Source: Oenococcus sp. UCMA 16435
GTDB taxonomy: Bacteria > Bacillota > Bacilli > Lactobacillales > Lactobacillaceae
DNA length: 64,000 nt
Reading direction: 5' to 3'
NCBI GenBank assembly: GCA_004010835.2
Contig: CP030868.2
Span: forward strand, 1,178,001 to 1,242,000
Shown: piece by piece, positions 7,929 to 21,615 of the stretch
Layout of the letters: each line of letters starts with the position of its first letter
Numbering within the stretch: the first letter of the stretch is position 1
Program-made: the position numbers and the translations under genes
The notes under the pieces: generated by a model
Told to the model about the DNA's origin: nothing
The model's database searches: none
Seen by the model: only the letters and a program-made list of their open reading frames with translations

Positions 7929-8195
7929 TTGAATAGTGGAGAAAAGATTAAATTACTAATCAAGCTTATCCGTCGATTAAGAAACAAATTCAAATGGATA
8001 TCTTTTAAATGCCTAGACCGGTTGTTAACTTTCAACCAGTGCAAATTGAATAAACCTAAAGAACTGAAGAAGGTCTATCTTCAAAAAAATGTTTTGTTGA
8101 TAGGGGTTATTTATAATAAAGAAATAGTGAATTCCATAAATGTATCATCAATTGTTTGTATGTGGTTTGAAAAGGGTTTTATCTCAAAGGGGTGA
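7929..8195 (+). CDS. Doubtful small open frame
   Basis: An 88-codon frame starting with TTG behind a GAAAGGG stretch. The product would be very basic (RRLRNKFKW) with no recognisable domain. It lies at the start of the decayed zone, so it may be chance or a remnant of something larger. Confidence 0.2.
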   Translation: MNSGEKIKLLIKLIRRLRNKFKWISFKCLDRLLTFNQCKLNKPKELKKVYLQKNVLLIGVIYNKEIVNSINVSSIVCMWFEKGFISKG

Positions 8196-8213
8196 ATGAG
8201 TTCTATCTCTATA

Positions 8214-8556
8214 TTTAGTTTCTAATTAGTATTGTTATTGATTAAGTCGACAATATCTTAAAGATCATTAACGCCTAAAACTAAATGAGTATACTTTTCA
8301 TCTTTGTTTATTTTCTCTTTTAATATTGAAAAAGCTTTCTTTTCCATCCTTCTTAAAACTGCCGGCTCAATATCTTTGAAGAGATTTGCCCGGTGCCCCC
8401 TAGACCCTTGCTGTCATTTAAAATTCCTGTATCAATAGAAGCTCCAATCACGTGTTGTGTTGAAATTTCTATTTTATTTTTCAATTCAGCTATTTTTTTT
8501 ATTCCTTGTGGTACTATTGATAATTTGTGATTTTCTATTGTTACTATGTTTAACAT
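8214..8556 (-). pseudogene. Decayed gene for a conserved small protein of lactobacilli
   Basis: The first 67 residues (MLNIVTIENHKLSIVPQGIKK..., then HVIGASIDTGILNDSKGLGG) resemble a small conserved family in lactic acid bacteria with a KIEIPLxHVxGA...PKGxRGPG pattern. A frameshift at the G/C run near 8390-8400 shifts the rest to another frame (LFKDIEPAVLRRMEKKAF...YTHLVLGVND), and a stop follows before the IVDLINN end. No function is known to me for the family. Confidence 0.5.
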
Positions 8557-8756
8557 TTCGACTACCTCAATCTATTTGAGAATGATCAAAAACCTGTAAG
8601 AAATATAAAACCGTATTTAAAAGTCTCCTAATAAGGAAATAAAAAGTCCTATTCAATTCTCTATTTGTAAATGTACCTTCACAGTAAGTCGCCAAAAAAC
8701 AGTAAAGAATATGATTTAAATTAATTTTATAGAGCTGTTTTAGATCAACAGCTTTC

Positions 8757-9565
8757 TCACCTCAACAATATAAAGAATATACACGAATTGAGGTAATTGT
8801 AAATATCTTTAACATAATTAAAACTATGTGCTAATGCGTCAGCCTGTCTAATTGCCTGGTAATCAATGACATAGATTACGGCGCCAAGATTTCGTAAATT
8901 CTCGTCGATACTACAACCAATTTTTCCATAATAAATAACCAATATACATTTAACCAATAAAGTAATACTTACAGTCTGTTAAAATATTTCTGGCTTAACA
9001 ACAATTTCATGACTGACTAAATAATCTTCTTCAATTTCTAGTGCGCCTCTAGCAACAGATATTATTGGAAGAAGCTTTATATCTTGCAGTTTAAACAGTT
9101 GATCATACTTTTGATAACTGTTTTCTGTGTCTTCAGTAACTTCTAATAACTGATTAGAGAATTATTTTTTTATATTTACAATTTGTGGTGCAAAATATCA
9201 GCCAATATCTATGATGGTGAATCTATCCTAAACAACTATTTTTGAGAAAAGAAATTACTGATGTTTTCTTTAGTTCCTCTCTTGATATTTTCAGAAATAA
9301 ACATTTTTGTTCTAGTGCGGTAAGTACTTTGTCATCAATGATTTTTGATTTTGGGACTAGAAAAACTTCGCAATGGTCACAAAGATAATCAATAAAATCA
9401 GTACTATTAATAACAACATGTTCAACAATAATTATTTTTTAGGAATAACTTTAGTATTTGAAAATAAATTTGCCGTTTTTTCGAAAAATTATTTTGAATT
9501 TAAATATTGGCTATCCCTCATAATCGCGCCCACGGATTCCTTTTTAATCTCATTTAAAAAGTTAC
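8757..9565 (-). pseudogene. Decayed NAD-binding adenosylhomocysteinase-like gene
   Basis: Read in pieces on the minus strand: VEHVVINSTDFIDYL, PKSKIIDDKVLTALE, IDIGGYFAPQIV, LLEVTEDTENSYQKY, SVARGALEIEEDYLV, then the Rossmann part YYGKIGCSIDENLRNLGAVIYVID and IRQADALAHSF. Together these look like an NAD-binding protein related to adenosylhomocysteinase and D-hydroxyacid dehydrogenases (GYGKIGxSIAxNL). Several stops and frame changes break it. It diverges from the ThiF locus at 10 kb and might once have belonged to it. Confidence 0.55.
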
Positions 9566-9599
9566 GCATATAGATGATTCTGAGTTGAGCGATTTCCCT

Positions 9600-9960
9600 A
9601 CTGGCCTGGGTGTTCATTCATTCTATTTATTAATTCCAAGATATTCTCATAAAAATATTTTTCCAGTGTGTTAACCGAAATATTTGGTCAATTAATTTCA
9701 TTGCCAAGATTTTTGTTATTATTAAAAAACGTGCTAGTCCAACCGTTCCCGAGGATTCACAAACAATACGATAGCGTCCTGAACATATCGGCCCTCTCCT
9801 CTATAGAAAGTTGTGAAGCTATTTTATAATATGACATGTGCTGAATTGTATTTAAAACATTCTTTTGCTTACTTTTTAAAAGTTTTTCTTTTTCTAAAAA
9901 ATGTATGATATCCTTTACTTTTTTGGAATATCAGAAAAGATTCACGAGGGGGGAAGATTC
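9600..9960 (-). other. Unidentified coding debris
   Basis: On the minus strand a stretch translates to KVKDIIHFLEKEKLLKSKQ, then YYKIASQLSIEERADMFRTL, with stops and frame changes after it. It has the composition of coding DNA, but I cannot name a family. No intact gene is present here. Confidence 0.3.
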
Positions 9961-10039
9961 TGACACAAAATTTTGATTTAACGATTATTAATGGCAATAT
10001 TTTTTGTGATAGATGTTAGATTGTGATTAAAAAAACATA

Positions 10040-10069
10040 TTGACTTTATGAAATACTATGAGGTAATAT
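10040..10069 (+). promoter_or_regulatory. Promoter of the RiPP-like locus
   Basis: TTGACT (10040-10045), an 18-bp spacer and TAATAT (10064-10069), followed 13 nt later by a strong AAGGAGGTG ribosome site. It drives the precursor gene at 10096. Confidence 0.7.
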
Positions 10070-10095
10070 TTTATTCAAAGGAAGGAGGTGTAATT

Positions 10096-10206
10096 ATGTC
10101 GAATGAAAAAGAATTAAACGATCCTAAAGAAGATCAACAGGTTGATATTCAATTGTTGGATTTTGAAGAAGCGTATGCAGATGTCATAGCGACTGAACGG
10201 ACCTAA
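10096..10206 (+). CDS. Candidate RiPP/microcin-C-like precursor peptide
   Basis: A 36-residue, strongly acidic peptide beginning MSNEKELNDPKEDQQVDIQ and ending LLDFEEAYADVIATERT. A near-perfect AAGGAGGTG site and a clear promoter precede it, and an Rho-type hairpin separates it from the ThiF gene, as mccA is separated from mccB. The leader-like first half followed by a hydrophobic/Glu-Glu core fits a substrate for an RRE-bearing enzyme. Unlike known microcin C precursors it ends in Thr, not Asn. The FEEAY pair recalls the Glu-Glu of pantocin precursors. The assignment as precursor is inferred from position and size. Confidence 0.65.
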   Translation: MSNEKELNDPKEDQQVDIQLLDFEEAYADVIATERT

Positions 10207-10225
10207 TAATGACAAAATTGATTCG

Positions 10226-10421
10226 AATATTAGGTGCAATCTAAATTGTTAAGCATTATATTTTATAAGAAGGTTTGAGAGTATAGTATTGTCTAAAATG
10301 TTAAACGTAGGACATATTTATTTAATATTAGGTGCAATCTAAATTGTTAAGCATTATATTTTATAAGAAGGTTTGAGAGTATAGTATTGTCTAAAATGTT
10401 AAACGTAGGACATATTTATTT
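10226..10421. repeat. Two perfect tandem copies of a 98-bp unit
   Basis: Copy 1 is 10226-10323 and copy 2 is 10324-10421, identical at every base. They lie in the untranslated stretch between the precursor gene and the attenuator. Each unit contains a short frame (ATGTTAAACGTAGGACAT...) of about 14 codons that has no good ribosome site. Perfect identity points to a recent duplication or to a length-variable leader. Confidence 0.95.
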
Positions 10422-10439
10422 AATGCAACGTAACTCTCA

Positions 10440-10463
10440 GTGGGGCACAAGCCCCACCTTTTT
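10440..10463 (+). terminator. Attenuator/terminator between precursor and ThiF gene
   Basis: A perfect 7-bp GC stem (GTGGGGC, loop ACAA, GCCCCAC) followed by CTTTTTG. No promoter is obvious between it and the ThiF gene 27 nt later, so readthrough would set a high precursor-to-enzyme ratio, as described for the E. coli mcc operon. Confidence 0.85.
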
Positions 10464-10489
10464 GTTAAGATGTGCTATTAAGGTAAACG

Positions 10490-11443
10490 GTGTTAATCAT
10501 GTATAAAATTGCAGACTTCGTTAGAGTCGTTGATGTAAATGATCATTTTTTGGTTGAGTATAGGAAAATATGGAAAATTTCGAAAACTCCGGAATCAATC
10601 GATGTTATAAATGCCGTATGTTCTAGTGGACTTAAAAAAGAAGACTTACTAGCTAAGACAAAAACGTTTGCGTTTTTGAAGAAACAAAAGCTTGTTAAAA
10701 GCAATCCGCCGTTGGATACGCATATAAATCCCAGAACGTATTACTTTATCGAAGGATTGGTAGGGAATCCAGACAAGGCTTTTGTTTCTTTGGACCGTCA
10801 GCGAGTTTGTATAGTTGGATTGGGTGGAATTGGAGGATCCATTCTTCAACACCTTTGCGGAAGCCATATTTCAAGATTTTTGTTGGTAGATTTCGACCGA
10901 GTTGAGGACAACAATCTGAACAGACAGTACTTATATTCAAAAGATGACATTGGAAAATATAAGACTGATGTATGCCGTGAGTATGTAAATAAACACGCTG
11001 ACTATCCCAATAATGTCAGTGTTTTTAGGGCACGAATTGAGACTGCAACTCAACTCATCAAAATTGCCAAGAGTTTTGATCCTACTTTGATCGTTTGTGC
11101 TGCCGACAAGCCGTATAACATTTCACGTATCGTGGGAACTGCTGCCTCGACACTAAAGTCGAAAGCTATCCAGGGAGGTGTAGGACCGGATTTTGCCAGC
11201 TATTCTTTCTATGATAAACCCACAGCGGGTACATTCACTCAAGTACCACGAAAGTCTAGAAATACTACTGTTATTCATGAAAGGCAAGTATCTTATGGTT
11301 CTTTTGGGCCAACTAATTCTATTTTAGCGGCTATGATGTCAAATGACATTGTTATGAGCGTAATTAAGGGCAAGTGTTTTGGACAGGTAAGTGGAAGAAA
11401 AAATGTGCTTGATTTTAGAAGATTTTCTTTTGAAAGCATATAA
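10490..11443 (+). CDS. ThiF/MccB-like adenylating enzyme with N-terminal RRE-like domain
   Basis: A 317-residue E1-like enzyme. Residues about 1-70 look like a winged-helix peptide-binding (RRE) domain. The ATP fold follows: GLGGIGG (110-116), DFDRVEDNNLNRQ (134-146), VCAADKP (about 204). Such enzymes adenylate the C-terminal residue of a peptide (MccB) or cross-link Glu side chains (pantocin PaaA). The paired CxxC zinc motifs of MoeB/ThiF are absent. GTG 10490 has AAGG 6 nt upstream; ATG 10499 is the alternative. First enzyme gene of the cluster, just after the attenuator. Confidence 0.85.
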   Translation: MLIMYKIADFVRVVDVNDHFLVEYRKIWKISKTPESIDVINAVCSSGLKKEDLLAKTKTFAFLKKQKLVKSNPPLDTHINPRTYYFIEGLVGNPDKAFVSLDRQRVCIVGLGGIGGSILQHLCGSHISRFLLVDFDRVEDNNLNRQYLYSKDDIGKYKTDVCREYVNKHADYPNNVSVFRARIETATQLIKIAKSFDPTLIVCAADKPYNISRIVGTAASTLKSKAIQGGVGPDFASYSFYDKPTAGTFTQVPRKSRNTTVIHERQVSYGSFGPTNSILAAMMSNDIVMSVIKGKCFGQVSGRKNVLDFRRFSFESI

Positions 11444-11453
11444 GGGATAAATC

Positions 11454-12616
11454 ATGAAAATTGAAATCGATGATGTTTTGTATGCTAAACCAGTGTTGCA
11501 ATCTTCATCATATGCAGGACTGCTTGTTCGAGATTTATGTTCGCCGCATTTAGTGCCGGGAAACAACTGTGAAATTTTTGTTGCTCAAGACCACATTGAC
11601 ATTCATCTTAAGACGTATCTACAGGAGTTAATGCCGCCTATATTGATACTTAAGGCAATTCGACGGTGCATGACAGATAAACGTTTACGTCTATATTTTT
11701 ACCCCGTTCTTTCTGCGAATATTGTTAAAAAGGATGTGATTGTTTTAACTACTAGGTTTTATGCACCTATGCTAGTTGATGTATTGGGGCCCCATGGTTG
11801 CTAGAGGGGTTCGTTCAGGAAAGAATTAGGGATATAGATTTCGTTCTTGACAGCTCTGGAAAGCACCGAGAGGATAATTTGTCTGATCGTTCTCTTGATC
11901 TGACTTGGCCATCCAACGGAGATGCACGAGAGAAAGATTTGTTCTCTAAAAATATTAGAAACCATTACACATTTTCAAATACGCCTGGAAGAAATATTTT
12001 TTTCATCAAATCACCTAACCAGCGGCTTATCTCACTAATCATGTTCAACAGGCACAATATTCAGTCAACCTTTATTAGTAATTTTCCTTTACAGGTAGAT
12101 AGCTGTGATAGTTTTGTTGTCAATCAGTTGCCAAATTTGGCGGATGAAAATGAATTTACTGGGAGAACCAACTGCAACATGGAACAGAATATGAATAAAC
12201 ATTTAACGCTTGCATACTCTGATTACTTTCCGAACAAAGAGATTTGTCTAACGATTCAAACAGTCTTGGCTCCTTTCTGCTATCTGTCACTTGTATGTAC
12301 AGGTAATATAATCAACCATAACAAATTGCGATCGCTTTACGATATGAGCTTGGAGATTGGCGCGCCAACCTTTTTTTCAACACTTGCGTTGCCATTGACA
12401 CATTTTTTTGATTTGTTTGTAGGAAAAAAAATGTCAACGATAGAAGCACTCTTTAGGAATGAGCAAAGTTATGTTGCTTCACTATATACTAGAACAATTC
12501 ACAGAGTCCCCTTATTCTCTAGCAGAAATATCTATTGGAAGCGTCGCGAACTGGAGGAAATACACGTTGACGAATTTGGAAGAATTGAGCTTGGAACCAA
12601 TGGATTTCAAACGTAA
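11454..12616 (+). pseudogene. Unrecognised cluster protein, split by a frameshift
   Basis: Two frames of 116 codons (11454-11804) and about 272 codons (to 12616) join into one protein of about 388 residues if one G is restored in the GGGGCCCC run at 11786-11793. Joined, the text runs YAPMLVDVLGAPWLLEGFVQERI without a break. I cannot name the family: there is no Walker motif, no SAM motif and no PLP motif, and Cys residues are scattered. AAGGG precedes the first ATG. The second half alone would start only at a TTG with no ribosome site. Its place between ThiF and the PLP enzyme suggests a tailoring or partner protein. Confidence 0.6.
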
Positions 12617-13844
12617 TGCAGTGACTGAATTAATGTACCTGAAATCGTTAGCTCAAGAAACAAATTTAAAATTTGATGAAGTCGGGAACGTTGAATTGTT
12701 TGGAAGTTATTCAGATGAGGTCGTATTACATCGGATTGAACAAAAGCTCCGGCGGAAGATTATTCAGAAGTCACTTTCTGATTTTGGTTTTTGGAACTAT
12801 AGATCTCCAGATAAAGTCATGCTTACGTCTGATGATTCCTTTCGTGCAACCTATGATCGAGCCCTTCCACTTGTGGATATTGAACATTTCTTTGAACACC
12901 AAGACCGTGTCCAAAACTGTGTGTGCTTTAATTCAGGTAGTGCGGCGATTAATGCTGCTGTTACAATATGTCAGCGAATCATGAACGTACCTATAGTTAA
13001 TTTATGTGGATACTTTGAAACAAATACATTACTGAAATATCTAATACCAAACAATATTAAATGCAAGACTAAGAAAGAATTTTTGATGAAACTAAAGGCA
13101 TCACATTTTGGAATAGTGGAAAAACCGTGTGCGTTTATGCAAGAGACTGAAATCTCGCGACAGGACATAATCAATACCGTGGGATCTCGTCATGAAAGAG
13201 GAAGACTGACGGTTTTAATAATTGATGATACTTTGGATACACAACGTACGAGCGATATAAATAGTTTTGCAAATGTGAATTTTCCATTAATATTGCTGAA
13301 AGTAAGATCGGGAGTAAAACTTGATCAGTGTGGCCTAGAACTTTTAAATCTTGGAATAGTGGATATCATAACGAATTTAAAGATGAGCCATGCAACTTAT
13401 ATTACAGAAATGTTAAGAAGCTATAGAGCGGTTTCTGGCTTGTCCATAGATTATAATTCTTACCTTCGTTTCTCCCCTGTATTATTTGCATCTTGTCACG
13501 TAAATTCTTATAGAGAGTTGATTGGTGAGAATACTCGCAAGGTGGTAAGACTCGTTAATAGTGTGAGCCACTCTAGATTCGAAATTGGATACAACACTGG
13601 TTGGCCATTCTTCTATTTAACTCCATCCTCGGAGAATGTAGACATAAGAGGTTGGACAGAAGGACTTTTGAATCACATCAATCATTTAGGTGGTTATTTA
13701 CCATTTGGAACCAGCTTTGGCTTCAGACAGACAAGGACAGATATTATAGACAGCAAATCGCTCAGATGTATCAGAATTGCTCCGGGAGCATTTCTTGGTC
13801 GCTCTGTAAATACATTAATTGATGCCATTGCTTCTACAAACTAA
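12567..13844 (+). CDS. PLP-dependent enzyme, aspartate-aminotransferase fold (Cys/Met-metabolism-like)
   Basis: About 425 residues. FNSGSAAINAA (about 121) fits the phosphate-binding loop, LIIDDT (about 220) holds the Asp that pairs with the PLP nitrogen, and VRSGVKLDQCG (Lys about 250) fits the Schiff-base lysine of the cystathionine-synthase-like group (SGxKxD). The reaction is unknown. I prefer TTG 12567, which has GGAGG 9 nt upstream, over ATG 12600 or ATG 12459. It overlaps the previous gene by 50 nt, and the decarboxylase gene follows after 12 nt. Confidence 0.7.
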   Translation: MTNLEELSLEPMDFKRNAVTELMYLKSLAQETNLKFDEVGNVELFGSYSDEVVLHRIEQKLRRKIIQKSLSDFGFWNYRSPDKVMLTSDDSFRATYDRALPLVDIEHFFEHQDRVQNCVCFNSGSAAINAAVTICQRIMNVPIVNLCGYFETNTLLKYLIPNNIKCKTKKEFLMKLKASHFGIVEKPCAFMQETEISRQDIINTVGSRHERGRLTVLIIDDTLDTQRTSDINSFANVNFPLILLKVRSGVKLDQCGLELLNLGIVDIITNLKMSHATYITEMLRSYRAVSGLSIDYNSYLRFSPVLFASCHVNSYRELIGENTRKVVRLVNSVSHSRFEIGYNTGWPFFYLTPSSENVDIRGWTEGLLNHINHLGGYLPFGTSFGFRQTRTDIIDSKSLRCIRIAPGAFLGRSVNTLIDAIASTN

Positions 13845-13856
13845 GGAGGAAGCTTT

Positions 13857-14888
13857 TTGTCTATTCATCAAATATTTTCGGAGGAACTCAACAGAACTTC
13901 CTTTATTACAAAACTAAAAGAATATACATATCCGACGATTGTTTATAACGAAAACATACTTAGAAGAGTCGCGAACTTTTATCAAACCGAAGAGAGAAAA
14001 TTTGCAATTAAAATTCTATACTCCATCAAGGCAAATCGAAATTTAAGAATCGTACAAGAATACTCATCAATATTGGACGGAGTTGATTGCGCTTCGAGTA
14101 CTGAACTAGATATCGCATTAAAGTCCCATCCAAGGACTATTTCTATAACGGGACGCGGATTTGAAGAAACTGAAGTTCATCGGCTGGACACACAGCATAT
14201 ATTGTTTGATTGCTGCACTCAGGATCAGGTTGATTGGTTCTTAAACTATCATTTTTTAGATGACTTAGGTGTTCGCATTAAAGGACAGTACAAGATTGGG
14301 ATTTCTATACATGAATTGTCACTGAGGCCATTGGTATGCCAGCGTATTCGAAGAGTACATTTTCATGGGGATTCACTTATCGAAATGACGAGAGCACTCG
14401 CAAATCTAAAAGAGTTATTATCCGGAGAAAAAATAAAGGTCATAAATCTCGGAGGCGGAGATATAGCAAGGAAAATCCTGACACAGAATAGTGTAGATAC
14501 AAAACTTTTTTTAAATAAGGTAACTCAATGGTATCCGAAAGCTGATCTTTTTGTTGAACCAGGTCAGCTATTAGTTGCACCAGTTGGATTCTTGGAAACA
14601 CAAGCAATTGGGCAAGCTGATGGACAACTAATTCTAAATACTTCTCCATTTAATTTATCTTCTTGGTATAAACCCATCTTAATTTGGCCCATTGTGGCCA
14701 AGGGCACTGGTTCTATAGTTGGGAATACCAATATCAGCGGAGATATCTTTGCTGAGGGAGTAGACATTTCCAAATATGTATCAGGATCGAAGTTTATATT
14801 TGGGATGGCTGGAGCCTACTTCTCAAGTACACATAGAGAACTTCACGGAAATAAATTTCCGGCAGAAAACTTTTGGTCGATGTCATAG
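13857..14888 (+). CDS. PLP-dependent decarboxylase, alanine-racemase fold (LysA/MccE-like)
   Basis: A 343-residue fold-type-III decarboxylase. The PLP lysine is in YSIKANRN (Lys58), then GVDCASSTEL, RVHFHGDS, the glycine loop NLGGGD, EPGQ, and a C-terminal GAYFSS. The family decarboxylates ornithine, diaminopimelate or related amino acids. In microcin C loci the MccE domain of this family turns a 3-amino-3-carboxypropyl group into aminopropyl. TTG start with GGAGG 8-10 nt upstream. Next gene is a methyltransferase-like protein, so the D-E pair of the mcc pathway may be present. Confidence 0.85.
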   Translation: MSIHQIFSEELNRTSFITKLKEYTYPTIVYNENILRRVANFYQTEERKFAIKILYSIKANRNLRIVQEYSSILDGVDCASSTELDIALKSHPRTISITGRGFEETEVHRLDTQHILFDCCTQDQVDWFLNYHFLDDLGVRIKGQYKIGISIHELSLRPLVCQRIRRVHFHGDSLIEMTRALANLKELLSGEKIKVINLGGGDIARKILTQNSVDTKLFLNKVTQWYPKADLFVEPGQLLVAPVGFLETQAIGQADGQLILNTSPFNLSSWYKPILIWPIVAKGTGSIVGNTNISGDIFAEGVDISKYVSGSKFIFGMAGAYFSSTHRELHGNKFPAENFWSMS

Positions 14889-14978
14889 GAAGATAAAAAG
14901 AGCACTTACAAAATAACGAGCCCATATGTTTTCAGTGCGTATACGTATATAAAAAAGAAATTTGAAGGGATTAAAAGA

Positions 14979-15752
14979 ATGAGCGAGTACGAATCTAAAA
15001 CGAATTATAATCGGAATTTTGCACCTTTTTATAACTATGCTCTTACTAATCAAGCGCGGGAGTATGGAAAGTTCATTATGGAATACGCTCAGCGTAAGAA
15101 TATTGAACACTCAATTGTAGATTTCATGTGTGGAACTGGGACTCTTTTGAAGAGGTTTGAAAATGAGGGTTGGATCACTACAGGGGTCGATCTTTCTAGT
15201 AATATGCTAGAAGTTGCTAAACAACAACTTCGACATACGCCGTTATTTCAGGAAGATGTGAGTTTAGTTAAACTTAATCGGAGATTCGGTTTGGCTGTAT
15301 CAACTGCTGATGCGGTAAATCATCTATCTAATTTGAAAACCATAGGGGACTTTTTTGAAAGTGCGTACAATAGTTTATCGGATAATGGCATTTTTATTTT
15401 TGACTTAAATACTGAAAAAGCAGTTAAAAATAATTGTTCGTTCTTAGTAATAAGTAACAAAGATTATATTTCAATCCGGGAAGGATTTTATGATGACCTG
15501 CACAAGATTGGCTTTACAAGATTTCAAGGAGCCTATAGGAAACCAGGGACGGATTTATATTTACGTTTTGATTCTAAAATTATAAATTATATTTACTCAC
15601 TTGACGAAATCCGACAGCTATTACTTGATAAAGGATTTCATAAAGTGGTAATAAGGAATGGATACTCTGATGAAAGCTATGATAAAGATCGAGCAGAAAG
15701 AGTAGTTTTTATCTGTGATAAAAAGAATGCTCTTATGTCTAAACACAAGTGA
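14979..15752 (+). CDS. Class I SAM-dependent transferase
   Basis: A 257-residue Rossmann methyltransferase. Motif I is DFMCGTGTLL (48-57), the acidic loop is GVDLSSNML, and motif post-I reads AVSTADAVNHL. It could transfer a methyl, carboxymethyl or aminocarboxypropyl group (MccD role); the sequence does not decide. AAGGGATT lies in front of the ATG. About 90 nt separate it from the decarboxylase, with a possible promoter but no hairpin. Confidence 0.8.
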   Translation: MSEYESKTNYNRNFAPFYNYALTNQAREYGKFIMEYAQRKNIEHSIVDFMCGTGTLLKRFENEGWITTGVDLSSNMLEVAKQQLRHTPLFQEDVSLVKLNRRFGLAVSTADAVNHLSNLKTIGDFFESAYNSLSDNGIFIFDLNTEKAVKNNCSFLVISNKDYISIREGFYDDLHKIGFTRFQGAYRKPGTDLYLRFDSKIINYIYSLDEIRQLLLDKGFHKVVIRNGYSDESYDKDRAERVVFICDKKNALMSKHK

Positions 15753-15780
15753 TAATGAACATGGATAGGAGAATTAACTT

Positions 15781-17044
15781 ATGTTGAGAGTGAACAACAA
15801 CCTTAGCAGGATTCTTATTGCGAAATTTTTTGGAACGTTTGGCAGCGAAATGCTTTCTTTTGCAATTGGTCTTTATATCCTGCGGAGAACAGGATCTGCT
15901 TTGGGTATGGGAATCAGCTTGGTCACTGGACCAATCGTCAGCCTTTGTATTACGCCCTTTGTTGGATATGCCGTTGATACGTATAGCCATAAAAAAATTA
16001 TGATCGCCTCGCAACTTGGAACAATTGTCTCCCTATTGTTATTTGCTCTTTTTTTCATTGAGTTCCCTAGCATATATTTTGTAGAGCTGGTGGTATTGAT
16101 TACGTTGCTTGCAGTTTCTGATGGATTTTTAACCACCGCGGTACAGGCAAGTCTCGCACAACTGTTTGGTAAAGACGATCTCCAAAGGGCGAACTCGCTC
16201 AATCAATCAATTTCATCACTCGCAGAGTTTTTGGCTCCGGTTTTAGGGGCGGTCGTCTACACTTTGATTAGCCTAGACATGTTCGCATATATAGAAGTAG
16301 GTTTTGAAACAGTTGCCTTAATTGCAATCATATTTCTCAAGTTTTTGAAGAACAGCAAAATTTCAGATGCCGAGGATTTGCAAGTTGCCGACACAGAGAG
16401 TCATATTGTGTCTAATTTTATCGAAGGCCTAAGATTTTTGTGGGAAAACAAATTATACCTAGTGTTTTCGGGATCGTCTGGCGCTATCAACTTCTTCTTT
16501 GCGACAATCAATATCGGCCTGCCTTTTTTTTCTGGTCGATAAACTTCATCTAACAAACACACAATATGGTTTTACAGAGTCTGCGTTTGCGGGAGGTATG
16601 TTCCTTGGCGGTTTGGTTCTGAGTAGACTTAATTTTAAAACGCAATCATTGAAAGTGGCTTACTTTAGTTTGAGCATATTCTCATTAATTGTTTCACTGA
16701 TTGGGCTTCCGAACCTGATCGCTTTGCCAAAAGGTGCATACACCATTTTGTTTATCGCAATTAACATTGTCCTCGGATTGTTACTTGTGTTTTCAAACAC
16801 ACCGGTTGACGTTTACATGCAACAACACATCCCGGAAAAGATGCAGGGACGCGTCTTTTCGATGGATGAAACTGTAAGTTCGATTCTAATGCCTGCCGGA
16901 ACGATAGTATTTGGGATACTGTTTGACCAATTTAACACTTTTGTTGTCTTTGCATTCGGTGGTCTGGTCATGCTGGTTCTATCATGCTGGGTTCTTATTA
17001 TTGTAAACAGACGCAAAGAAGCAGTTGTCTCAATCGACGGTTAG
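15781..17044 (+). pseudogene. MFS exporter of the cluster, frameshifted
   Basis: Two frames (15781-16542 and from about 16530 to 17044) join into an MFS protein of about 420 residues with about 12 membrane segments if one T of the T8 run at 16524-16531 is changed. The text then reads NIGLPFF-LVDKLHLTNTQYGFTESAFAGG. It has the size and position of MccC-type exporters that pump the finished peptide and give self-immunity. GGAG precedes the ATG. As written the exporter is truncated after the sixth or seventh segment, so either the locus is dead or the T-run is a phase-variable or sequencing error site. Confidence 0.75.
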
Positions 17045-17229
17045 AGTTCTATTTTGGCTTTGTGTATCGGTAATTATAAAGGTTATTGTAGATATAACTA
17101 TTGCAAGGAAAATTTAATTAATAATCATAAAAGAAATTAAATATTTGTATAAATATGTGAGCTATCAATGGATTTATAATAAACATAATCAAGGAATTCA
17201 AATTTCTTATTTTGGAGAAGCCCAGAGAA

Positions 17230-18990
17230 AAGCGGATGCATAACTATTCTTTGATATCTTAAACGGTAAAAGTTCTTTTGACGTTAATGCAAGAACCCTG
17301 TACCGTTTGTTCTCTAATGAATCAAAGTTAGAATCTGATGGCATCAACCCAATGAATGAACGATTGAAGAAAATTTGATAAATGAATACTTTATCCGAGT
17401 TCTTGCATAATTGGGCTGACTAGGCAAGGTGACTTTTCCCACTACCATTTCAAGTTGAAGTTATTCGCGATTTTGAGAATAATAATTCTTATATTTTATC
17501 GTAAAACGTGATTGATAAAATTTTTGAAAGTGCATATACATATAATCGGAAAAACATACCATCAAAATCCAATAGTTCGTGGCGACATATATTATTAAAA
17601 AGGCCTTTGGTGGGGAGTGGTCTTTCTGCTTAGCAAGCGAACATATATATATATCAAAGATTCTCTATCTTTCGATAAACTAGCAGGCGAGTTCATAAAA
17701 TCGCGTGCACAGTGGAACGATATAGTAGCCGAAACAACAAAGAACCTGTTGCCAGGATTGCAAATGAAATGCATACTATTTGCTTCTTGGAAAGTATTTA
17801 CAATTTGTTAGGTAAAGTTCCGAACGTTGTTAACGTTACAGAACCAGCCTATTTCACAAATTTTGGTAGAATTTCTTGTGCAAAAACCTTTTGTCTTTAT
17901 AAACATTGGGCGTACATAAATGAAGTGATCCGTGACACAAATCTTCTTTCGGATCGTTTGCGAAGATTAGGAATACTTTGCCTTGACTTTCAAGGAAGAA
18001 AACCCTTGTTTATGCCTCAAAGTGAGTTTTCTTTAAAGGCAACTTTAAGTAATATGGTGGAGCCTCTTACAATGGAACATGTATAGAACAACCTGCCTCG
18101 TAAAACAATAATAGCTATTGAAGAAATGATCGAAGACCTACGTAGAGAAATTTATTACCAAGGTAAACAATTCCCATCTTTCTTCCGGATTCAAGGCAAT
18201 AGGAATTAACAATATTAGAAATATAAACTCTAGAGTTGGAGCTCTTTTAATGGTTAGATCATTTTATTATTATTTCTTATTCTCGGATAACTCCTCGCCT
18301 TTCACCAATGTTATAGTTTTCTCCATTAAGCAGTTCGATTACCAACTAGATCTTTTACGCCAACATTCAAAGAATCCACATACATACTGGCATACTGGTC
18401 AGTGAGCTCTCACCTAGCCACAGCTAGATATATTTTTAAAGAAAATAGTATTTTGATACCTGCAGCCATTCTTACGTTTCCCTTCTTTTCGCTCAACGGA
18501 TCAAGATTTTCCAATTATAGTTCCATTGGAACCATAATCTTACATGAAATGAGTCATGCTCTCGACTTGAACAGTAGTCAATTTGATGGCCGAGGAAACT
18601 TGTCATCTTGGAGCAATCACAACGATACTATCGTGTATGAACATATGGTACAAAGATTAATCCAACAAATTTGTCTCATAAACAAAGGTTTTGAAGATGT
18701 TCACGGACATGCAGAAATAAACGAAATTTTTACCGATACGACTGGTCTTCAAATTGCTGCTAGCGCCGCGAAGCTAACTTCTACACATACTGCAAGACAA
18801 TTCTTTTTTGCTTGGGCTAAAATCTGATGAACATCTCAGTGCGAGAAAACAAATAAAAATCAGTTTGATATTCACCCACTCCAAAGTTTCCGCACTAACT
18901 TTGCTGCATATCATGTGCTTGAATGGCATAAGTTGCTCAACAAGAATTAGTGGCAATAACAAGTTCAAGAATACTTCCTTTGTCTCTTGC
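17230..18990 (+). pseudogene. Decayed M13-family metallopeptidase (PepO-like)
   Basis: Pieces in several frames add up to most of a 630-residue M13 peptidase: ARTLYRLFSNESKLESDGI (about 17300), LPFQVEVIRDFENNN, NVTEPAYFTNFGRI, LIPAAILTFPFFSLN, the zinc site HEMSHALD with EIFTD as the second-ligand motif ExxxD, and FFFAWAKI. A last piece near 18870 reads DIHPLQSFRTNF, the usual end. Frameshifts and stops break it throughout. The two largest open pieces are 17712-18086 and 18402-18827. Confidence 0.7.
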
Positions 18991-19261
18991 TTAAATTAAA
19001 ATTGGCAGGTAACATTAGACTAATTATTTATGTTGGATATTTGGACATGGTATAGATGAATTTATTGGAACCTCAAGTAATATAAGTGGAGTTATAAAAG
19101 ATTATGCCAATTCGATTTATCTAAACCACAAAATACCAAAAGGAGACTATGTGTCTTATTACTACGGTTATAAAATTACTGTATTTTTAACTTAATATCA
19201 TTATCTACTGTAATAATAATTTTATTAGTATCAACAGTCGTAATAGTATATAGAGGAAATA

Positions 19262-19711
19262 ATGAGTCTAACTTCGCTTCTTAAAAAAGATGGATACAAA
19301 CTTTATATTGACCGGCTAGATGATCCTAATTTTGGAACCGTGTCACGCCCAAAAACATTGAAGCAATATAGAACAGAATTAATCAATGCAAGTCTTTAGC
19401 ATAATATGTACTACTAATATCAGTCATCCAAAATGGTGTCAATGGGAATTAGGGATAGGACAAGCAATGAGTGGTCGAAATAATTGTATTTTTCGAATAC
19501 TTAATGAATCTAGTAAGTTTTTAAGGGAAAAGAATATTTGGACCTATACCCATATTTGGTATACCAACCCGAAGTATTGGAAAAAGAAAAACATTTTCGT
19601 GTCGTTGACCCTCAAAATAAAAATACTTGGAACGTGCCAGATAAATGTTTCGAGTGTTGGCCGTTAATTAGGCATGATCAATGGCTAATTACTAGTCTAT
19701 ACCCAACATGA
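19262..19711 (+). pseudogene. Decayed TIR-domain protein gene
   Basis: Frame pieces give LLKKDGYKLYIDRLDDPNF, then LKQYRTELINAS, and in the next frame IICTTNISHPKWCQWELGIG QAMSGRN. This is the SxxxSxWCxWELG end of TIR domains (catalytic Glu in WELG). A third frame supplies HFRVVDPQNKNTWNVPDK. At least two frameshifts are present and the N-terminal strand with the SHSSxD loop is missing. It lies tail to tail with the intact TIR operon at 19740-21615. Confidence 0.65.
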
Positions 19712-19739
19712 TTTGATCAATAAAAAATGTGTTATTTAC

Positions 19740-20996
19740 TTATTTATTTAATTCGTTTAGTCCATCTTGTCTAAGGCTCTCAGTCGTTTGATAACTTTCT
19801 TTTTCCCAATCGTATGTTAAATGATCGAAAAACAATTGTCTATATTGGATATATTGATCATTTTGACCTTCTAACAGGCAAGAAAGAGATATAGTGGCGG
19901 ATAACCAATAATCACAATCCGAGGATTCAGATAATTGCCTTTCATATTCCCGTTCCGCAAGTTTGAGGACTTCCTTATTTACGATTTTGATTCGGTATTT
20001 TAAATAGGCCTGCTCCTCAGTGCCATTAGATTTTGATAGTTTATAAAGCAGGCAATTAACTACATTTTCCCCATTGTAATAATTTCTACTGAGTACAAAG
20101 CTTCTATTGTAGGATTTTATTGCGTTTTCCAAATAAGGCGTACTTTTGGTACAGATAAACAAACGTTTTTCAATGGCACCATAAATTCCCGTAGTTTCGG
20201 AATCAAGAGATGCAAATGGATTTAATTTTTTAATAATTTCTTCCGCTTTCGTTAAAGACGTTTTATCGGGATTGTGATTCGCATCTACCACTTTGCTTAG
20301 AAATAAGGCGCGTTGTTGTTTATAATACGGATTATTTGGATTATCTAGAGACAATGATTTATAAATATCTGATGTTTCTAAATATTTGTCCTCTTTTTTT
20401 AATTCATTAGCTTGATCCGTCAGGCTTCGAATTGTCAAAGAATCATAATGTTTAGCTCTTATCTCTTCTAATTTGGCTTGGGAAATTTTGGGTGCATTTA
20501 TATCTTTGACATATTCGTAAAATGGACTGTCGCAATTTACGTGGCCTTGATCCAAATTATAAATCGTGTTTTTCAATAATTTTCGTAAGGATCGCCGCTT
20601 CTTTTGCAAAAGTTCTTCGTTGTTTATGTCGCCCCAAGAATACCTAAAAATACGATTATGACTAAAATCAAATGGTAACTCATCTTCGTTTAGACCAAGT
20701 ATGATCGTGGAATAAGGCTTTAAGGCGTGCCTTATTCCTAGTTCGTAAATTGCATTAGGATTCAAGGTTGTGATATCTGCCACCACAATATCAGCACTGA
20801 GCAATAGTTCGAACATGTCTGTGTCGATTATTTCAGAACTGGATATTTCATCTCCACGCACGTTATCAATCTTTGAAAAACTTTTTAAACTAGATTCAAT
20901 TAATTTGGTATAAATTTTATCCAAATCTATTGACTTACCTAATTTATAATCTACTTTCTTTCCGTATCCCATCACAGTAAAACAATGGTATGTCAT
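19740..20996 (-). CDS. TRAFs-binding/TPR-like protein with deoxyribosyltransferase-like N-terminal domain
   Basis: A 418-residue protein. Residues about 1-130 form an NDT/TIR-like domain: SADIVVADITTLNPNAIYELG (Glu86 in the YELG position of the nucleoside 2-deoxyribosyltransferase family). The rest is helical and TPR-like (DUF4071, the TRAFs-binding domain). No membrane segment. AAGGAG precedes the ATG. It follows the ThsB-like gene by 22 nt, so the two are one operon. Role as effector or sensor in antiphage defence is inferred from the partner. Confidence 0.7.
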   Translation of the reverse strand: MTYHCFTVMGYGKKVDYKLGKSIDLDKIYTKLIESSLKSFSKIDNVRGDEISSSEIIDTDMFELLLSADIVVADITTLNPNAIYELGIRHALKPYSTIILGLNEDELPFDFSHNRIFRYSWGDINNEELLQKKRRSLRKLLKNTIYNLDQGHVNCDSPFYEYVKDINAPKISQAKLEEIRAKHYDSLTIRSLTDQANELKKEDKYLETSDIYKSLSLDNPNNPYYKQQRALFLSKVVDANHNPDKTSLTKAEEIIKKLNPFASLDSETTGIYGAIEKRLFICTKSTPYLENAIKSYNRSFVLSRNYYNGENVVNCLLYKLSKSNGTEEQAYLKYRIKIVNKEVLKLAEREYERQLSESSDCDYWLSATISLSCLLEGQNDQYIQYRQLFFDHLTYDWEKESYQTTESLRQDGLNELNK

Positions 20997-21018
20997 AGTT
21001 TTATTTTCTCCTTCTTAA

Positions 21019-21615
21019 TTATTTTGGATAAACTGTTATTTTATCCGCAATAGGAGACTCTCTTTTATTCCAGGCTTGTTCTATGAACTCTTTTGAATTG
21101 GAGACAAAATCTTCCCATTTTACTAATACACAATAACGTTCATCTTCTTGCCATGCACATGAATTATGATCTTTTTCAATGTAATAATTTTTGCTTAATT
21201 CTTTAATTACATTTTCGTCATCAATAGCCACATAATTATGTCTTTTTCCGCAAATGTTGCAAATGTATTGTCCCTTGTATATTTTTTCGTACATTTCAGG
21301 AAGAACTATTCCTAGTATTCCATTTCGTCCGTGATTTTGTGAATGGTACAGGGAAGCTTGTAATTCCTTTTTAATATAATACTGTTCGTTTTGGCCCAAC
21401 GATTCAGCACTATAACTACCGATTAAAAATAATGTAACACTAGAATCCTTTAAGTTTTCATCTCTAATTTTTTGCATAACATAATCAGGGTTATCGGAAT
21501 TAATGGGGATATCCAAAGATTTATCAATCATCTGTATATCTTCGATTTGCTGTATATCTTTTTTGTAACCCTCATCTTCCATTTTGAACGAAATAAAACA
21601 TTTGTGTATTGCCAT
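21019..21615 (-). CDS. ThsB-like TIR-domain protein (DUF1863 type)
   Basis: A 198-residue protein with the ThsB start KCFISFKMEDEGYKKDI, then NSDNPDYVMQKIRDENLKDSSVTLFLIG and the Cys/His group CNICGKRH ... HNSC. ThsB proteins are TIR enzymes that sense phage and make an NAD-derived signal for ThsA. Here no SIR2 or Macro ThsA gene is adjacent; the partner is the TRAFs-binding protein. GAGG lies 5 nt before the ATG. First gene of a two-gene minus-strand operon. Confidence 0.75.
   Translation of the reverse strand: MAIHKCFISFKMEDEGYKKDIQQIEDIQMIDKSLDIPINSDNPDYVMQKIRDENLKDSSVTLFLIGSYSAESLGQNEQYYIKKELQASLYHSQNHGRNGILGIVLPEMYEKIYKGQYICNICGKRHNYVAIDDENVIKELSKNYYIEKDHNSCAWQEDERYCVLVKWEDFVSNSKEFIEQAWNKRESPIADKITVYPK

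Follow-up and report, generated by a model that had tools for sequence, protein, structure and literature searches.

The window analysed here, a 64,000-nucleotide stretch of the 2.03-Mb, two-contig genome of Oenococcus sp. UCMA 16435 (C1:1178001–1242000), carries at 10040–17044 of its + strand a peptide locus that we read, with a probability of about 0.5, as a ThiF-type gene set for a ribosomally synthesised and post-translationally modified peptide (RiPP), in which the C terminus of the precursor would be activated and a microcin-C-like amine attached as decoration. That the window holds a decaying copy of such a locus, of a kind with an Arg-Thr (R-T) tail, is in our judgement an even bet. 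Precursor, hairpin, ThiF enzyme, protein X, two pyridoxal phosphate (PLP) enzymes, methyltransferase and major facilitator superfamily (MFS) exporter were all located on this one strand (Table 1), as the initial annotation had proposed for all of them but X. Sequence argues strongly for the RiPP reading, because eight out of eight loci present the same order: a mini-open reading frame (ORF) preceded by a Shine-Dalgarno (SD) sequence, a hairpin, then thiF.

Precursor tails, hairpin and ThiF enzyme

The window precursor gene (ATG at 10096, stop at 10206; 36 codons) has AGGAAGGAGGTG ahead of its start. Seven further loci of this type, hereafter RT-type, were collected from E. faecalis (L015), L. 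lactis (L016), L. plantarum (L077), L. garvieae (L078), S. aureus (L110) and two further genomes of the window's order (L105, L106); the precursor of another locus, L111, is identical to that of L110. Over the window, L015, L016, L077, L078, L105, L106 and L110, the predicted peptides of 15–36 residues end in ERT, ERT, VRT, RRTLF, RRT, RRTVL, ERS and KRT, that is, in Arg-Thr in 5/8, in Arg-Ser in 1/8 and in Arg-Thr plus two hydrophobic residues in 2/8. The L105, L106 and L110 precursors read MIVEEKETRESTRRTVL, MEIEREDVREMIERS and MKVTKKTSREMVKRT, the last being the same in L111. None of the eight ends in Asn, which had already been remarked for the window peptide.

Among the 117 SD-preceded ORFs of 10–40 aa in the eight loci, six end in R-[T/S], and all six are the ORF before thiF, a count to be read with caution as the SD pattern and the length range were picked with the first loci already known. 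In the first five loci, 33 ORFs of 10–80 aa lie within the 500 bases ahead of thiF; each of these loci has an ATG ORF with a strong SD and an R-T tail, terminal in four and followed by LF in one, and the background rate of RT-ending ORFs over all loci collected at that point was 17/5393. One more SD-preceded ORF, with a TTG start, lies upstream of thiF in L078.

The window hairpin (10440–10457; GTGGGGC-ACAA-GCCCCAC followed by CTTTTTG) is the sole terminator-like site in 9900–10520, where 0.3 were expected. By eye, a hairpin separates precursor and thiF in all eight loci, with folding z-scores of −2.56 (window), −5.68 (L015), −9.26 (L016), −2.24 (L077), −4.15 (L078), −13.46 (L110) and −2.58 (L105); the 96-base gap of L106 has a plain folding energy of −27.2 kcal/mol.

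The window ThiF (10499–11443) matches the Pfam ThiF family at 99.4 bits and carries ~90 residues N-terminal to that domain. Its best solved relatives are MccB structures (6om4, 3h5n, 3h5a; E ~2e-16), with PaaA further away (8e-10). In an alignment of five ThiF proteins, GxGGxG, D131, NxNRQ, K155 and D203 are invariant and the ATP-site residues are kept. An RT-type ThiF profile matched 25 of 395 genomes of the order at 1e-25; after genome G000, the E-values step from 1e-75 and 2e-64 (L105 and L106, both RT-type) to 1e-38 and weaker. Two of the weaker matches (L107, L108) combine ThiF with an MFS-like gene (by eye), show no X match and appear to represent another ThiF type of ~320 aa. In a tree of 19 ThiF rows, which excludes L110 and 12 of 23 other rows for which no frame was recovered, the seven RT-type rows form one group (87/88), within which the window groups with L015 (96/93) and L016 (87/89); a 14-row tree gives 93/93. 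Window, L015 and L016 are the three RT-type loci with the pair of PLP enzymes.

Beyond these shared parts the gene sets vary. The E. faecalis plasmid LR962333.1 encodes ThiF, X (392 aa, open), the fold-type-I PLP enzyme (PLP-I), MFS, a PepF-like protein, the fold-type-III PLP enzyme (fold-III) and a GNAT protein; L. lactis p001F encodes ThiF, PLP-I and an AAC(3)-type acetyltransferase, together with X, fold-III and MFS in two frames each, the second MFS piece being without a Pfam match. ThiF, X, PepF-like protein, MFS and methyltransferase make up both the L. plantarum pLL441-1 locus and L105, and the first four of these the L. garvieae plasmid locus (L078/L109). In L106, ThiF, X, an ABC-ATPase-like protein, a PepF-like protein, MFS and GNAT were found; S. 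aureus plasmid pC314_1 (L110) holds ThiF, X, a PepF-like protein and GNAT plus, on the opposite strand, an MFS gene, and L111 resembles a fragmented copy of it. X and MFS thus occur in 8/8 loci and a methyl- or acetyltransferase in 7/8 (not L078). The window S-adenosylmethionine (SAM) enzyme matches methyltransferases, in a comparison that did not include MccD, and is 45% identical to the methyltransferase of the L. plantarum locus. No plasmid close to the window DNA was found. In one order genome (G390), the contig of L106 also carries, more than 1 Mb away, a PLP-I fragment (L047) with an MFS-like gene.

The initial annotation had seen a ThiF-type RiPP locus, and seven other loci, each with a related ThiF preceded by a conserved mini-ORF, bear this out; the contrary picture that it had drawn, of ThiF kin confined to molybdopterin or thiamine loci and a small frame without conservation, is not what these loci present. 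Kindred loci in other bacteria include the unbroken one on L. plantarum pLL441-1, which makes an intact locus available in a food bacterium, and that of E. faecalis with its open X. The group is a sequence-defined one among ThiF RiPPs, its signature being the R-T/R-S tail, the hairpin, ThiF, a signal-less OppA-like protein and a PepF-like protein lacking HExxH.

The PLP enzyme pair, protein X and the PepF-like protein

PLP-I of the window likely starts at ATG 12600 (414 aa, matching its relatives) and not at 12459. By profile and residues it is a member of the Cys/Met metabolism PLP family, whose hallmark is the transfer of a 3-amino-3-carboxypropyl unit and whose C-terminal Arg binds an alpha-carboxylate. 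A PLP-I profile matched a profile of ten Cys/Met enzymes at 96.6% (E 6.7e-10), with Y-x-R, SGxAAI, YxET, D209, SxxK240 and the C-terminal Arg all aligned; we take these to be Tyr and Arg for the PLP phosphate, the SGxAAI loop, a stacking Tyr, the Asp, the S-x-x-K Lys and the carboxylate-binding Arg. This comparison is not fully independent, since its ten reference enzymes came from the PLP-I search; Pfam, which is independent, places Cys_Met_Meta_PP at E 2.9e-6 (L015) and 8.3e-6 (L076), 0.5 and 2 bits under its cut-off, and a cystathionine gamma-synthase-like model matches the L052 protein at 3.1e-4. PLP-I shares fold type I and the register of catalytic residues with cystathionine gamma-synthase and other Cys-Met enzymes (PF01053), but is only 12–13% identical to them in the profile alignment, has a longer stretch before the Lys and is located in peptide loci. 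Its C-terminal Arg is kept, with Lys in the non-RT members. The AlphaFold model is weak (pLDDT 46), and Foldseek returned mixed matches, mostly fold-type-I PLP enzymes, at TM <0.35.

The window fold-III enzyme keeps the PLP Lys, GGG, EPG and GAY, with Asn at the usual active-site Cys. That position is likewise N in L016, S in L015, C in L005, L051, L012 and L052b, M in L046 and L in L052a. When 21 loci were searched by tblastn, fold-III was found in 11 of the 13 with a PLP-I match. Loci of different small peptides share the pair.

Outside ThiF loci, the pair occurs in three settings. In L004, L005, L014 and L051 it lies beside a thioredoxin-reductase-like flavoprotein and MFS (the latter by eye except in L005); adjoining small ORFs end in VDKPY and VDKVY in L005 and L051, and none was found in L004 and L014. 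The two ORFs of 47–48 aa (L005:10609–10755, L051:5033–5176) share LSM.NMEI.L and a VDK.Y tail, possibly a second RiPP kind. In L046, L052 and L076 the neighbours are an arginase-family gene, with guanidinobutyrase and agmatinase as its best solved relatives, and an ABC transporter; two fold-III matches were obtained in each of L052 and L076, which also have a GNAT (by eye in L052). Small ORFs there have the tails GGSRLRQRMS, GGSRIDKDRL and GGSRPRLK, and with their Arg/Lys-rich GGSR ends these three loci look like a separate RiPP kind. The third setting is L012, a metagenome-assembled genome of Pseudomonadales, with the pair near an asparagine-synthase gene and a 46-aa ORF containing GGSNDKK, for which no SD was found; at L012:5081–7156, the synthase gene and this ORF, which by eye has a lasso-like leader, adjoin the pair. 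L013 has PLP-I without fold-III.

These searches covered GTDB, where a PLP-I profile of three rows gave 79 stretches with 3 relatives among them, and viral contigs (38 stretches, no relative). Over the 395 order genomes, 29 rows were obtained at 1e-3; kin are those of G000, G298, G574, G390 (the L047 fragment) and G470 (a remnant), possibly joined by a further remnant in G311 (C-terminal part, two stops). The remaining rows we took, by length and position, for ordinary Cys/Met enzymes. Beside the remnant in L048 and a short MFS-start-like frame (by eye), an AAC(3)-like acetyltransferase gene is open (L048:7439–8260; Pfam 3.4e-68), so L048 may be a decayed locus that retained its immunity gene.

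Protein X, the 388-residue protein that the initial annotation had left unrecognised, is by its sequence relatives an OppA/SBP_bac_5-like binding protein. Its identity was first suspected by eye, failed a direct profile test and was accepted only via L078, L106 and L110: Pfam finds SBP_bac_5 in X of these 3/7 relatives, at 38.6 bits in L110 (cut-off 32.4) and, below cut-off, at 8e-7 in L106 and 7.6e-6 in L078, and gives no such match for X of L015, L077 and L105 or for the L016 pieces. The first window piece matches no family, and neither window piece alone matches SBP_bac_5. A four-member X profile (L077, L078, L105, L106) matched 20 SBP_bac_5 proteins at 96.2% (E 2.5e-9, 414 columns), X of window, L015 and L016 matched this four-member profile at 96.2% (E 2.2e-9, 129 columns), and all X pooled reached SBP at 79.2% (E 1.6e-5). 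The second window piece is 33.5% identical to the E. faecalis X (tblastn). X aligns over most of the SBP_bac_5 length but, by eye, its starts show neither signal peptide nor lipobox, unlike OppA. An X profile over the 395 order genomes gave only G000 convincingly, plus two weaker matches (E 0.002, 0.006); a phage search returned none, and the AlphaFold model of the second piece (pLDDT 33) was useless.

The PepF-like protein occurs in 6/8 RT-type loci and was not seen in the window and L016. It aligns to PepF (M3) by TIGR00181 in L110, L106, L105, L077 and L015 (E 1e-49 to 2.8e-15, all far under the cut-off) and by a tblastn match in L078/L109, but lacks HExxH in 5/5 proteins checked.

Proposed chemistry and competing explanations

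ThiF-RiPP enzymes adenylate a carboxylate, which a nucleophile then attacks (PMC12250964, PMC12150305). The window enzyme would likewise activate the C-terminal carboxylate of its precursor as an acyl-AMP. In microcin C, an aminopropyl group is installed by MccD and MccE-N, and the GNAT domain of MccE confers immunity (PMC12250964). By analogy, PLP-I might provide a 3-amino-3-carboxypropyl group and fold-III trim its carboxylate, leaving the amine; as the hallmark transfer of the Cys/Met family is here combined with a partner of decarboxylase fold, the pair may be a second route to a microcin-C-type amine. The idea is testable, as it predicts mass shifts of +101.05 and then +57.06 Da (hand calculation). 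Methyl- or acetyltransferases could cap an amine, as tailoring or as self-immunity. X and the PepF-like protein may be copies of peptide-uptake and peptide-digesting proteins that were retained for holding the peptide, not for moving or cutting it, possibly for self-protection, a role suggested by their families and by the absent catalytic and export features; the MFS protein would export the peptide.

Several observations weigh against this picture. The PLP pair is present in 3/8 RT-type loci and absent from 5/8, and no transferase is annotated beside the L. garvieae exporter. Aminopropylation is an analogy, and its donor might be SAM or O-acylhomoserine; the Asn-succinimide route taken by MccB is not open to a Thr/Ser tail. 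Only 2/7 PLP-I proteins tested reach the Pfam Cys/Met family at E ≤0.01, none above cut-off, and those of window (0.067), L046, L051, L052 and L012 do not. Fold-III may not be a plain decarboxylase, because Asn replaces the decarboxylase Cys in the window (Asn also in L016, Ser in L015, Met in L046). Compared directly with SBP_bac_5, the window-type X set scores 0.2%, and the first X piece against the other X set 0.3%. Finally, L105 (one, of 45 aa) and L106 (two) have other SD-preceded small ORFs upstream, so that the choice of their precursors rests on likeness to those of L077 and L078.

Instead of joining an external amine, ThiF might close an intramolecular ring at the tail (a Thr/Ser ester, or an imide), as the cyclising ThiF-RiPP enzymes EnfB, IndF and GrcB do (PMC12250964, PMC12150305), with the PLP pair as an add-on making a separate small building block. 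A beta-hydroxy residue, T or S, is indeed kept in 8/8 tails, and L077, L105, L106 and L110 have a methyl- or acetyltransferase without the pair; however, T/S is terminal in 6/8 loci, where ring closure through that residue's hydroxyl would give a beta-lactone, and by eye Trp, Cys and Lys are not conserved in the tails. We hold such a ring as a tentative possibility. Somewhat more doubtful is that the pair acts directly on side-chain amines: those of Lys, or of Orn that a peptide arginase would have formed from Arg. In RT loci its target would then be an amine added once ThiF has activated the tail. An arginase-family gene in three pair loci (L046, L052, L076) and R/K near the tails of adjoining small ORFs in L005, L046, L051, L052, L076 and L012 point that way, but the kept C-terminal Arg/Lys of PLP-I suggests an alpha-amino acid substrate, given the role of the Arg in this family, and the arginase might instead act on free arginine or agmatine. 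For the preferred reading, too, an amine nucleophile (Orn) would suit the arginase loci, though these may also use free arginine or agmatine.

A microcin C locus proper, whose N-P-bonded adenylylated peptide poisons an aminoacyl-tRNA synthetase, is improbable. Alike are the tiny precursor gene followed by a ThiF with MccB as best solved relative, and the MFS, SAM enzyme, fold-III and, in relatives, acetyltransferases that parallel MccC, MccD and MccE (PMC12250964); unlike mccABCDEF, the present loci have R-T/R-S and in 0/8 an Asn tail, a Cys/Met-type PLP enzyme in addition, the OppA-like X and, in relatives, the PepF-like protein, and the SAM enzyme matches methyltransferases (again with MccD outside the comparison). 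The initial annotation was right in setting PLP-I and the 388-residue protein outside the mcc set, going by the summary in PMC12250964; its term "microcin-C-like" holds for the parallel gene roles only, as the locus falls outside microcin C. The weakest competitor, a thiamine or molybdopterin ThiF/MoeB locus mistaken for a RiPP locus, is barely credible: matches to ThiF/MoeB models exist, but score far below the curated cut-offs (best 67.1 vs. 159), the precursor is conserved, and the window ThiF is the sole RT-type profile match in its genome at 1e-5, in an assessment that included no model search for thi or moa genes nearby. Unlikely, if less so than the last two, is a wider extension of the preferred reading: a portable PLP-I and fold-III module that puts aminopropyl-type amines on several unrelated RiPP kinds (ThiF with Arg-Thr, arginase with GGSR, flavoprotein with VDKxY), the ThiF kind being Trojan-horse peptides with a payload that mimics threonine or serine towards the cognate tRNA synthetase, while OppA- and PepF-like decoys in the cytoplasm would protect the producer.

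Among other known systems, enterofaecin (EnfA/EnfB) and Ind (IndA/IndF) share a ThiF-like enzyme whose substrate is a short peptide of ribosomal origin and occur in lactic acid bacteria and streptococci, but their precursors end in WWIVI and NWYFI and have other partner genes (PMC12250964, PMC12150305); such aromatic-Ile tails are found in 0/8 RT-type precursors. GRC differs in having a thiolactone at a C-terminal Cys and partner enzymes of the radical SAM kind; there is no Cys tail here and nine window proteins scanned gave no radical SAM match. Daptides have a methyltransferase, whose model matched weakly here (34.7 bits against 175), and a C-terminal Thr; their gene set is not known to include ThiF, X or such a PLP pair. 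The general gene combination is already on record, since TLAT (ThiF) genes of Enterococcus and Streptococcus are reported to lie close to decarboxylases, methyltransferases, N-acetyltransferases and PLP-dependent enzymes (PMC12250964, after Wang 2024). Titles and abstract openings of the open-licence literature make no mention of the R-T-tail group or the PLP pair; the Wang 2024 survey (ACS Omega) lies outside that scope and may describe the group.

State of the window copy and its surroundings

In the window locus, X and the MFS exporter are each split into two open frames. The initial annotation had hinted at a break by proposing that intact frames be sought elsewhere, without placing the breaks now located in these two genes. 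Such breaks are not general in the window, since several other long genes (418–736 aa; positions 1–40000) are open. With X and MFS broken, export and probably production would have been lost in this strain, and the window copy is probably nonfunctional. A turnover of such loci would fit these broken genes, the frame breaks of L016 and L111, and the AAC(3)-like gene that stays open next to the PLP-I remnant of L048.

Table 1. Features of the ThiF-type locus in the window (positions in the window)
Feature	Position	Strand	Basis
Promoter-like site TTGACT-18-TAATAT, before precursor gene	10040–10069	+	Pattern scan
Precursor peptide gene, 36 aa, C-terminal VIATERT	10096–10206	+	R[T/S] tail in relatives
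98-base stretch in two exact tandem copies, between precursor and hairpin	10226–10421	+	Sequence repeat
Terminator-like hairpin between precursor and thiF	10440–10457	+	Same-place hairpin in relatives
ThiF/MccB-like adenylating enzyme, 314 aa	10499–11443	+	Pfam, solved relatives, kept residues
OppA-like protein X, piece 1, 116 aa, frame break at its end	11454–11804	+	Open frames in relatives
OppA-like protein X, piece 2, 272 aa	11798–12616	+	tblastn to E. faecalis X; profile link to SBP_bac_5-like relatives
PLP fold-type-I enzyme (PLP-I), Cys/Met (transsulfuration) family, 414 aa	12600–13844	+	Profile and residues
PLP fold-type-III decarboxylase-like enzyme (LysA/ODC kind), 343 aa, TTG start	13857–14888	+	Kept Lys, GGG, EPG, GAY
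SAM-dependent methyltransferase, 257 aa	14979–15752	+	Methyltransferase matches
MFS exporter, piece 1, 253 aa	15781–16542	+	Family match
MFS exporter, piece 2, 181 aa, different frame	16499–17044	+	Family match

The promoter-like site is no evidence on its own, as six sites of this pattern occur in the region and 4.1 were expected. The 98-base tandem duplication is likely recent. An Rfam scan of 8000–20000 gave no match. Downstream of the exporter lies the remnant of an M13 (PepO-type) peptidase gene (18402–18827; Pfam 7.6e-25), with pieces upstream of it that match nothing. Further on, the − strand of 19740–21615 encodes two neighbouring proteins, one TIR-like and bearing a TPR-S domain, the other a ThsB-like TIR protein, possibly a Thoeris-like defence pair.

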